Shown one piece after another: positions 16,805 through 21,891 of a DNA stretch of 64,000 nucleotides (position 1 is its first letter; the number at the start of each line of letters is the position of its first letter). The stretch lies in NCBI GenBank assembly GCA_951812965.1, contig OX638341.1, forward strand, positions 2,772,438-2,836,437. Direction: 5' to 3'. The translations under genes were made by a program, and so were the position numbers. This DNA comes from an uncultured Pseudohongiella sp. (lineage in GTDB: Bacteria > Pseudomonadota > Gammaproteobacteria > Pseudomonadales > Pseudohongiellaceae). Under the pieces are notes generated by a model. That model did no database searches and was not told the DNA's origin. It worked only from the letters and a program-made list of their open reading frames with translations.

Positions 16805-17053
16805 TTACCCGGGTCCGCCTTGCAGCAGTTCCGTTATCTGCTCAGGAACAAAGGGCCAGTTCAGTTCGCGGCCGCTGTGGGGATTGCGCAGCACGGGAAT
16901 TGTAAGCCCATAACGGGCAACCAGTTCTTCGGACTCGCTGATGTCCACCGGAGTCACCCGGATGTCCCGTGAACGGACCAGTTCATCGAGCATGACGGCG
17001 GCGTATTCGCAAAGATGGCAGCCGGCCGTGGTATAGAACAGCAATTCAGGCAT
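16805..17053 (-). CDS. Glutaredoxin-like (DUF836) protein
   Basis: A small thioredoxin-fold protein (82 aa) with a CHLC motif at 12-15 (TTAGCHLCEYA) and the cis-proline segment LTIPVLRN near 50-57. It belongs to the DUF836 glutaredoxin-like group, whose substrate is unknown. It follows pyrD by 11 nt on the same strand and is probably cotranscribed. No signal peptide. Confidence 0.85.
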   Translation of the reverse strand: MPELLFYTTAGCHLCEYAAVMLDELVRSRDIRVTPVDISESEELVARYGLTIPVLRNPHSGRELNWPFVPEQITELLQGGPG

Positions 17054-18114: not shown

Positions 18115-20219
18115 TCAGAAACGAAAGCGAATACTTGCGTTAAAATGTCGCGGTAATTCAGGCAACGCTATCACGCCGCCGAACAGATTGGGAAATTCGC
18201 GCGAAAATACCGTTCGTCGGTAATGTTCTTGATATTGAAGCTGAACAGCCAATCGCGGGCTTCGTAGCCGAATCCCAGGTTCACCAACGTGTACGCCGGG
18301 AGTCAGACGCGGCGGGAATAGCCCGAGTACACTTCTTCCACGTCGGCGGCGCTGCCATTGATCGTCCAGCCATTGACGAGGTCCCATGTGCCCGTGAACG
18401 AGTAGATGTTTTCCGGCATACCGGCCCGGCGAGCGTCGCCGCCGATGACCTCGCCTCCCAGCGCGCCGCCGTACAAGCGCCAGGGCTCGATCCCGGGCAG
18501 ATCTTCCGCTCCGATGAAACTGCCGGCTTCGAGCGTGTTGAGATTGACGACCTCGATCCTGGAATAGCCGAATGAGAGCAACAGGCTTTCACTATCAGAC
18601 CAGCGTGTTTCGAATTCGATGCCGCGCGTACGTGAAGCCTGATTGGTAACAATGGCCTGGGCGGAGAAGTCGGTGCGTTCCTGACGGTAAGCCGCGGCGG
18701 CAAAATACAGTCTATTGTCGAGCAGCCGACCCTTCACTCCCCCTTCGAGCAATTCGGACTGGTCAAAAGCGCTGCCGTCCCTGACGCCGGCGGTAGTCAC
18801 TTCGGCGCCCTGCCCGGCGATGAGCGTCGATTGCCGCGAGACCGTAACATAGGGCAGCAAGCCGTTATCCAGTTGCCGGCTCAGACTCAGGGTCCAGGAA
18901 ATACCACCGACATTGTCTTCCGCCGCGGGAACGACGCAATCACCCGGAGGAAGGCAGAAATTGTTTGAACTCGGCAAAAGCAGTTTTTCCAGAGGCTGAC
19001 GGCTTTCAACATCGATGCTGTCGTGGCGCAGACCGACCAGCGCCGAGAACCCGCTGTCGAAATTCATATCGAGCAATGCGGCCAAACCGAAGTCAGTGTA
19101 GTTGCCGATGTAGTACTCGGTATAGCCATCGTCTATGCGGGTGGCGAGCAGGCGATGGGCAAGCGCGTCCAGCGGCCGGGTAAGGTCGCGCCGGTCGAAA
19201 TTTTCGTTGGTGTAGTCGTCGCCGTGTTCGAATTCCGTATGGCGCAGGGAAGGCGACAATTGCAAGTCCGCGGTCATCTCCTCGAAGCGGAACTGCCTTG
19301 AAAACACCAGCTTGTTTTCGACGACCCAGGTGTCGTGGAACTGGGAAAATCCGTAGGCGTTCTCGTTCAGATTGTCATAGTGTTCGAAGAACAACTGGTT
19401 CTTCCAATCCCAGCCGATGCCGTTGCCTCCCATCAGATCCTGGGTGAGCCGGTTCCAGCCGGCCACCTGGTTGCCCTCGTATTGATGCAACATGCCGCCG
19501 AACTGGGCGCGAATCGCGTTCGGGAAGTCCATATCCACCGACAGTTGCAGGAGATTCTGCCGTTGGCCGCTGTGGTCGTAATAACTGCCGGAATCTTCGG
19601 TCAGGGCGTACACGTAATAGCCCAGATCCCGCGAGCCGATCCGGCCCGGCCCGCCGGCCTCGGCGGCAAGCACGGCCTTGTCCCAACTGCCCGTGCTGAA
19701 CGAAACGGCGCCGCCGGTCTCGTCGAGAAACGCCCCGGTTTCCTCTATTCGGGCCGATTTCGGATTGAAATTCAGATAACCGCCGATTTTGGACGGCCCG
19801 TAGATCGGGGAAGCCGGACCCCGGATAACGTCGATGCGGTCGGACGCTCCGATCGGAGTCGGATAGTTCCCCGGATTGTCCAGCCGGCGCATGCCGCGAA
19901 AATAGGTTTCGCCCGGCGTGCCGCGGATGTCCAGGCCACCGGCCACGCCGAAGAACGACTGGGTAAAACTGCCCGGCGCGAGCACGATCAACTCATCGAT
20001 ATCCTGCATGTCGAATCTTTCGAGCAATGCCGATGAAATCGTCGAAGCGGAACGCGGCGTCTCCAACAGCGACGTTTCGAACCCGAACACCGATTCCACG
20101 TAGCCACCAGGGAGACTGTCGAGATCGCCCGTGACGACGATCTCCTCCACGACATCCTGCGCCGAGGCCAGGCCAGTGACCAACAACAAACAGAGACCTG
20201 CGGGAAATCGGGCTGGCAT
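18115..20219 (-). pseudogene. TonB-dependent outer membrane receptor, broken near its 3' end
   Basis: The main frame (18303-20219, 638 aa) has a signal peptide (MPARFPAGLCLLLVTGLASAQ), a TonB-box-like EEIVVTGD, a plug domain with IDVIRGPASPIYGPSKIGGYLNF, and a long beta-barrel. It looks like a siderophore-type receptor; the ligand is unknown. It stops at a TGA (18303-18305) after SGYSRRV. The same frame then continues LPAYTLVNLGFGYEARDWLFSFNIKNITDERYFRANF, and from about 18190 the next frame carries on as PNLFGGVIALPELPRHFNASIRFRF and a stop at 18115. That is a normal barrel end finishing in F. So two lesions, a nonsense codon and an apparent one-base loss in a CCC run, remove the last 62 or so residues. 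Confidence 0.85.
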
Positions 20220-20376
20220 TGTTTTCCTTCCCTGACCAAGCGCCGGGAAGCTTGCTATTTTTTTCGGTATCGGTCAACTTGCCGGCAGGCAATTCCGCGA
20301 AACGGCGCGAGTTTGCGGCGGAGCCATTCCGGCGAATCTTCAGACATCCACGCATGCGGGCGGGCAAGCGATTGCA

Positions 20377-21891
20377 ATGCGAAAATCCGACAACAGGGCG
20401 GCGCTGAGCCGCCGCGAACTGCTGGCCGGCGCGGGAGCCGCTCTTGGCGCCGGAATGCTGCCTGGCGCCCTGCTCCACGCGCAGAACGAGGCCGAAAATT
20501 CTTCCACCGTCGTCTTCACCGATACCACCATAGTTACCAACGACGTCGAGCGGCGCAGCCTGCGTAACATGGCGCTGGCGGTGCGCGACGGAGTCATTGC
20601 CGCAATCGGCGAAACTGATGAAGTATTGTCCGCATTTCCCGACGTGGAGGTCTACGACTGCAGCCGCAAGGCTTTGCTACCTGGCCTGATCAACTGTCAC
20701 GCGCATTTGTCGGCGACGATAGCCAAGGGTTTCAACGAGGATTTCGGCTTTCCCAACAGTCTGCAATTGCCGCAAAGTCCGGAAAGTATGCTGTCGGAGG
20801 ACGAGGTCACCTTGATGTCGGTGCTCGCGGCACTGGAAGGGCTGCGTTCGGGCACCACGACCATGGTGCAGAATGTGAGCGGCATCGCCCGCGACGCCGC
20901 GGCTTTGGCAAGAACCGGCCAGCGCTGGGTATTCGCCGAATCCGTACGCGATATCACCACCGTGGACGGTCCGATGTCGCCGCCGCGACTGGCAGATAGC
21001 GTTCCACCGCAATTTTCCGACCGGCTGCGTGAAGAAGGCATACAACGCATCGCCGATCTGCATGGCGCCTGGCACGGCCGCGACAACGGCCTGATCAGCG
21101 TCTTCCCCGCCGCCGCGCTGACCGAATTATCTTCGCCGCAATTGCTGCGCGACGTGCGCGAATTCGCCGAAACCCACGATCTCGGCTACACCATCCACAT
21201 GACCCAGTCCCGGGCCGAGGTCGATTTCATGCTGCGCTACCACGGCGTGCGGCCCGCGATTTTTCTCGCCGATAACGATTTTCTCGGTCCGCGGCTGTTC
21301 GCGGCCCATGCGCGCTATTGCGACGCCGCGGAGATTGAAGTTCTGGGCCGCAGCGGAACCATCATCACGCATCAGGCGGCGATGGCGGCGAATCGCGGCG
21401 TGAATCCGCCGATTACGGCCTTGCGTGAAGCCGGCTGTCCTATCGCCATGGGCACCGACAATAACAACACCGACATGTTGCATGTCATGAAAACGGCGAT
21501 ATCCATGGAGCGCATCCAGCGCAACGATGAAATTCCCGGCACTCTGCCGCAACCCGAAGACATGCTCGCGGACGCGGCTGGCGGCGGCGCACTCGCTATA
21601 CGGCAAGGCTCAATGCTCGGTTCGCTCGAAGTGGGCCGCAAGGCGGATCTGCTCGTGCTCGACACCATGCAGCCGCACCTGATTCCCTCCGGCCGCATCC
21701 TTTCCGCCTGGATTCACAACGGCCAGCCCTCCGACATCGAATCGGTCATGGTCGACGGCAGATTTGTCATGCGCGACCGCCGCGTACTGACGCTCGACGA
21801 GGCGGACATCCTGGAGCAAGCCTGGCAAATCGGCCGGCGGGTCTGGAACCGGATGCTGCAAAACGGCCCGCTGCCACTGCCCCGGCTGTGA
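20377..21891 (+). CDS. Tat-exported amidohydrolase family protein
   Basis: A 504-aa metal-dependent hydrolase of the amidohydrolase superfamily, nearest in pattern to the cytosine/SAH/triazine deaminase group. The N-terminus has a twin-arginine motif (SRRELLAG, 11-18) and a hydrophobic stretch ending near AHA/LLHAQ, so export by Tat is likely. Metal ligands are H108 and H110 (INCHAHLS), a histidine in YTIHMTQS and an aspartate in MGTDNNNTDML. The composite beta-sandwich is formed by residues 46-100 and the C-terminus (GRKADLLVLD). It is divergent from the damaged receptor gene across 157 nt. The substrate is not known. Confidence 0.85.
   Translation: MRKSDNRAALSRRELLAGAGAALGAGMLPGALLHAQNEAENSSTVVFTDTTIVTNDVERRSLRNMALAVRDGVIAAIGETDEVLSAFPDVEVYDCSRKALLPGLINCHAHLSATIAKGFNEDFGFPNSLQLPQSPESMLSEDEVTLMSVLAALEGLRSGTTTMVQNVSGIARDAAALARTGQRWVFAESVRDITTVDGPMSPPRLADSVPPQFSDRLREEGIQRIADLHGAWHGRDNGLISVFPAAALTELSSPQLLRDVREFAETHDLGYTIHMTQSRAEVDFMLRYHGVRPAIFLADNDFLGPRLFAAHARYCDAAEIEVLGRSGTIITHQAAMAANRGVNPPITALREAGCPIAMGTDNNNTDMLHVMKTAISMERIQRNDEIPGTLPQPEDMLADAAGGGALAIRQGSMLGSLEVGRKADLLVLDTMQPHLIPSGRILSAWIHNGQPSDIESVMVDGRFVMRDRRVLTLDEADILEQAWQIGRRVWNRMLQNGPLPLPRL

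Follow-up and report, generated by a model that had tools for sequence, protein, structure and literature searches.

Features of the locus

The window, by which we mean the entire stretch of 64,000 nucleotides that was analyzed, carries a TonB-dependent receptor gene on its minus strand and, diverging from it, a gene for a Tat-signal amidohydrolase. The receptor gene is open for most of its length and is followed by a homologous tail that its reading frame does not reach:

18303 to 20219, minus strand: open part of the probable receptor pseudogene, a 638-codon open reading frame (ORF) covering the signal peptide, the plug and most of the barrel
18303 to 18305, minus strand: in-frame TGA, in a column where relatives have sense codons (alignment and tblastn)
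18190 to 18192, minus strand: CCC run marking a one-base shift of the homologous frame (second-frame alignment, 18207 to 18118)
18115 to 18302, minus strand: barrel tail outside the open frame, recognized by homology, ending in ...NASIRFRF, with the old stop at 18117 to 18115
20377 to 21891, plus strand: intact Tat-signal amidohydrolase (TRZ/ATZ-like), the divergent neighbor, not part of the pseudogene

The Pfam Plug domain (PF07715) matches the window receptor at 4.9e-11 and scores 43.5 bits, above its cut-off of 23.9, in agreement with the family assignment made by an earlier, sequence-only reading of this DNA. The barrel of TonB-dependent receptors is a C-terminal, 22-stranded domain (Pfam PF00593), and this second profile gave no match to the window protein and two intact relatives at E 0.001 or to a third relative at E 1.

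Terminal lesions and intact homologs

Two lesions had been proposed near the 3′ end of the gene, and both are borne out by alignment. The receptor frame ends at the TGA as described, and behind it the same frame reads LPAYTLVNLGFGYEA..., through which tblastn alignments of one receptor gene from each of two related genomes (copy A of G022 and of G021) pass uninterrupted. Identity to these two copies is 77% and 87%, respectively, over the 30 residues before the TGA, and 83% and 90% after it. The one-base shift at the CCC run is likewise evident in the second frame, where the last 30 receptor residues align at 83% (G022) and 87% (G021) identity within an ORF at 18115 to 18387. The window protein and that of G022 copy A are 86% identical. 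As the earlier reading also held, the tail closes as a proper barrel terminus ending in phenylalanine, and this aromatic-ended C-terminal strand is absent from the window frame, in which the stop comes first.

A profile search that covered 84 genomes from the genus located the receptor in 11, and in two of these the gene is broken. The other nine have 12 intact, full-length copies: two in tandem in each of G021, G022 and G073, and one in each of G018, G030, G033, G083, G072 and G087. Every one of the 12 copies lacks an internal stop and ends in phenylalanine, and none ends at the TGA of the window gene; four outer relatives end in tryptophan. Because all 12 homologs read on to the terminal phenylalanine, we conclude that the terminal lesions are private to the window genome. 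Intact orthologs in relatives and disabling lesions in the window gene are what is expected of a pseudogene.

For the wider comparisons made below, 20 full-length sequences were available besides the window gene and the remnant in genome G104, and one of these (L060) is the G083 record, leaving 19 distinct homologs. Within this set, masked residues occur toward the end of L067, a sequence from the same assembly as L066, and the G087 protein is approximately 50% identical; L068 (no full ORF) and L069 to L071 (26 to 27% identity) were left out. The three genomes with tandem copies are metagenome-assembled genome (MAG) records, namely JANQSV01 (G021, IP30b_bin.5), JAJDYJ01 (G022, jk18x34bins.22) and VYCF01 (G073, SB0675_bin_1). 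Other jk18x bins than those used here are tied to Caribbean Ircinia sponges in one report (PMC9531527), and the window organism may also live in sponges. Our literature search found no paper on TonB-dependent receptor pseudogenes in sponge symbionts, nor one treating such pseudogenes together with the C-terminal phenylalanine; for pseudogenes and genome reduction in symbionts with TonB systems it led to work on a mosquito symbiont.

On the minus strand at 18195 to 18189, the one-base loss leaves the sequence T TTC CCA, which fits the pattern X XXY YYZ typical of -1 slippery heptamers. This arrangement raises the idea of recoding, whereby readthrough of the TGA followed by a -1 slip would give some full-length barrel, and the -1 frame does continue into the homologous tail at precisely this point. 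However, two successive recoding events would yield very little product, and no relative uses such a device, as all 12 genus copies read straight through. The heptamer is probably a by-product of a one-base loss next to a run of T residues, and we consider recoding exceedingly improbable.

Fusion of two tandem receptor genes

The tandem receptor genes of G021, G022 and G073, designated copy A and copy B, occupy the same site as the window gene, between pyrD and a MoxR gene. Whereas these three genomes keep two intact genes, the window has one that is both fused and broken. Its 5′ end derives from copy B:

20189 to 20360, minus strand: copy-B-derived segment, comprising the upstream region and approximately the first 31 coding nucleotides (site comparison)

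We compared the window gene with both copies at 261 diagnostic sites, each uniform among the three A copies and among the three B copies but different between A and B. The window gene matches B throughout the upstream region and up to coding nucleotide 31, A at 48, B at 96 and neither at 183, and it is mostly A from 187 onward, which places the crossover from B to A between coding nucleotides 31 and 187. Furthermore, the upstream region from -140 to 0 is 84 to 89% identical to B copies and 35 to 44% to A copies, whereas coding nucleotides 61 to 780 are 84 to 85% identical to A copies and 74 to 76% to B copies. The receptor body is 84 to 86% identical to the copy A proteins of G022 and G021, and 84% identical at the DNA level to G073 copy A.

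A six-gene tree, in which some genes are missing, places the window genome as sister to (G022,(G021,G073)) with support of 95 to 100, and the receptor body clusters with the A copies with support of 95. The simplest reading of these sequence comparisons is that a tandem pair collapsed through recombination in the 5′ coding region common to both genes.

Internal deletions and an EF-hand-type loop

The sequence upstream of the terminal lesions had been described as undamaged. This part of the earlier account does not stand: the 5′ end belongs to a different gene copy, and comparison with copy A reveals two in-frame losses, of 107 and 3 codons:

19432 to 19439, minus strand: junction of an in-frame deletion of 107 codons (321 nt), reading GATCTGAT
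18522 to 18523, minus strand: junction of an in-frame deletion of 9 nt, three codons that relatives keep

In G022 copy A, GATCTGAT and the near-copy GACCTGAT, alike at seven of eight bases, lie exactly 321 nt (107 codons) apart, and the copy A genes of G021 and G073 repeat just the GAYCTG core at this spacing. An 8-nt repeat at the spacing of a deletion, as seen here in a homolog, is the usual mark of deletion between short repeats, and such an event would account for the larger gap. Because both deletions keep the frame, they may predate the inactivation of the gene.

The missing 107 codons include a 12-residue EF-hand-type loop (e.g., DRNGDGRISHQE), which is present in all 19 distinct full-length homologs, although its Pfam EF-hand score (E 0.09) is below the cut-off. 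In one homolog (L055, 6001 to 8442) this calcium-loop motif occupies residues 280 to 291. The motif probably sits in a long surface loop of this receptor family. Our literature search on TonB-dependent receptors with EF-hand loops led to neisserial metal receptors and showed no family of the present kind.

An AlphaFold model of the intact G073 copy A was built from a 14-row alignment, and we used only its strand pattern, given a mean pLDDT of 43.5. It has barrel-like strands, and those at residues 240 to 253 and 360 to 375 flank the EF-hand-type loop. With low confidence, this pattern suggests that the 107-codon deletion probably removed the loop together with most of one barrel strand, and that the TGA would cost approximately three further strands (756 to 766, 770 to 777 and 806 to 813).

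Age of the probable inactivation and the possibility of sequence errors

We found no relaxed selection on the remaining receptor sequence by three measures, namely dN, invariant sites and neutral fraction. Pairwise omega against sister sequences is 0.09 to 0.10, and dN on the window branch is 0.88 to 1.34 times that of sister branches, a coarse measure given that the same ratio ranges from 0.22 to 2.64 in eight control genes. Of 199 sites that are otherwise invariant, three are changed in the window receptor, compared with zero to two in eight of nine comparison copies; the ninth, the divergent G072, has changes at 12 of 211. The neutral fraction of the window branch has point estimates of -0.8 to 3.3%, with bootstrap upper limits of 3 to 9%. 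This lack of relaxation limits the age of the damage. It agrees with a recent death of the gene, as it would with a live gene carrying sequence errors.

To survey the window for comparable defects, an automatic scan for stops and frame shifts used 111 ORFs of relatives, merged into 44 stretches in which a relative reached at least 55% identity and which cover 58,274 nt, the receptor included. After shadow ORFs and extended starts had been removed by inspection, these 58,274 nt held no further stop or shift flanked by conserved sequence. An error-prone assembly was also considered and rejected: the ten other flagged ORFs were judged to be antisense or overlapping shadow ORFs or upstream start extensions, by inspection against the ORFs of the window and, for the place at 16970, from the ORF list alone.

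If the two terminal lesions were nonetheless errors of sequencing or assembly, the window would encode a live, shortened, fused receptor whose only losses are the EF-hand-type loop and a handful of codons. The position of one lesion at a run of C residues, the lack of relaxed constraint and the preserved frame at both internal deletions all agree with this possibility. However, it calls for two errors about 110 nt apart in one gene, while the rest of the covered sequence has no unexplained stop or frameshift, and the loss of most of a barrel strand predicted from the low-confidence model also speaks against a live receptor. We therefore regard errors as an unlikely explanation. Since a single gene bears several lesions of different kinds, the evidence favors a genuine and recently inactivated TonB-dependent receptor gene, a pseudogene that is also a fusion, and we consider this reading the most likely. 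The constraint measures, the few changed invariant sites and the small neutral fraction agree with the earlier view that the event is recent, at least on the scale of these species.

Parallel loss in a second species

Genome G104 is a one-contig genome that lies outside the clade of the window genome (G000), G021, G022 and G073 in the tree, and it keeps the same neighboring genes. The decayed pair of genes lies at L088 6943 to 8128. What remains of the receptor, a B-like copy, is the signal-peptide stretch and the final 292 codons; approximately 500 codons between these remnants are gone, and the frame changes where they meet. A TGA next to this junction falls within the signal-peptide stretch as read in a different frame. 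The amidohydrolase of G104 is reduced to its last 48 codons, and the upstream region common to the two genes is kept. Because the losses lie on either side of this preserved region, G104 has suffered at least two deletions, none of which is common to the window. A lesion common to the window and G104 was considered and is ruled out by the different deletions.

The receptor was thus lost independently in a second related species. Such repeated and recent loss suggests a dispensable, accessory uptake route; the receptor occurs in 11 of 84 genus genomes and is broken in two of them.

The neighboring amidohydrolase

The earlier reading had raised the possibility that the Tat amidohydrolase next door belongs to the same lost pathway as the receptor. 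The arrangement gives some reason to think so, as the two genes are divergent neighbors in G000, G022 and G073, both are ruined by separate deletions in G104, which raises the odds slightly, and in G011 the dehydrogenase adjoining the amidohydrolase is followed by a different TonB receptor. In the window, however, the amidohydrolase is open and 91 to 92% identical to its G022 and G073 orthologs, with a pairwise omega of 0.097; relative to the sister, dN on its branch is higher by a factor of 1.81, a ratio based on small numbers.

The distribution of the two genes in the genus also argues against a common pathway. Near full-length amidohydrolase orthologs (at least 75% identity) are found in nine genomes (G000, G022, G073, G025, G099, G012, G023, G080 and G011), and only the first three of these also have the receptor, leaving six with the enzyme alone; G089 has a split match. 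Conversely, seven genomes have an intact receptor and no amidohydrolase. We therefore find a shared pathway under loss decidedly unlikely: the proposal fares poorly in the genus survey, although the ruin of both genes in G104 does favor a connection of some sort.

At three of the six enzyme-only loci examined (G011, G099 and G012), the amidohydrolase adjoins a gene for a PQQ-dependent dehydrogenase, and the other three have no receptor among the scanned neighbors. The pairs of amidohydrolase ortholog and dehydrogenase lie at L105 5125 to 8478, L107 6059 to 9415 and L108 4519 to 7994. The dehydrogenase is a possible functional partner of the amidohydrolase.

A proposed course of receptor loss

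We propose that the ancestor of the window genome had a tandem pair, with copy B beside the amidohydrolase and copy A beside pyrD, as in G022 and G073. Recombination in the common 5′ coding region would have placed the body of A behind the promoter and signal-peptide start of B, with the remainder of B deleted. A short-repeat deletion would then have taken 107 codons in frame, with the EF-hand-type loop and, by the model, most of one barrel strand, and a further 9 nt would have been lost in frame. Finally, the TGA and the one-base shift would have deprived the protein of its last strands and terminal phenylalanine. A barrel without its C-terminal strand should not be assembled by the BAM machinery, and this way into the cell would be closed to the ligand of the receptor. 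Because the genome has no second receptor copy (other matches in its single contig of 3,425,201 bases are partial and at most 33% identical), the nutrient uptake route is probably lost, as had been suggested.

A more elaborate account is a stepwise dismantling of the receptor under selection, in which an in-frame loss of the loop first spared the barrel and a complete switch-off followed, the parallel inactivation in G104 reflecting the same pressure. Loss of the loop could then, for example, have allowed escape from a phage or toxin that uses the receptor. We hold this account to be very unlikely.

Among known systems, the TonB-dependent siderophore-type receptors (NCBIfam TIGR01783) match the window receptor in the plug and first barrel strands, with a score below the cut-off (92.3 versus 223.5 bits). 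The best PDB match is the pyochelin receptor 1xkw, which covers just residues 45 to 241 of the profile. A further resemblance to receptors of the TIGR01783 type is that the intact genus relatives end in phenylalanine. The intact family differs from that type in having the EF-hand-type loop; the window copy lacks both the loop and the C-terminal strands.

The lesions, at least four on a fused tandem gene, are ordinary in kind. Nonsense codon, frameshift, short-repeat deletion and duplicate collapse are all features of ordinary bacterial pseudogenes, from which the window gene does not differ in kind, and their presence together in one gene makes it a clean example of recent receptor loss. The receptor family with its conserved EF-hand-type loop is perhaps of more interest than the pseudogene.
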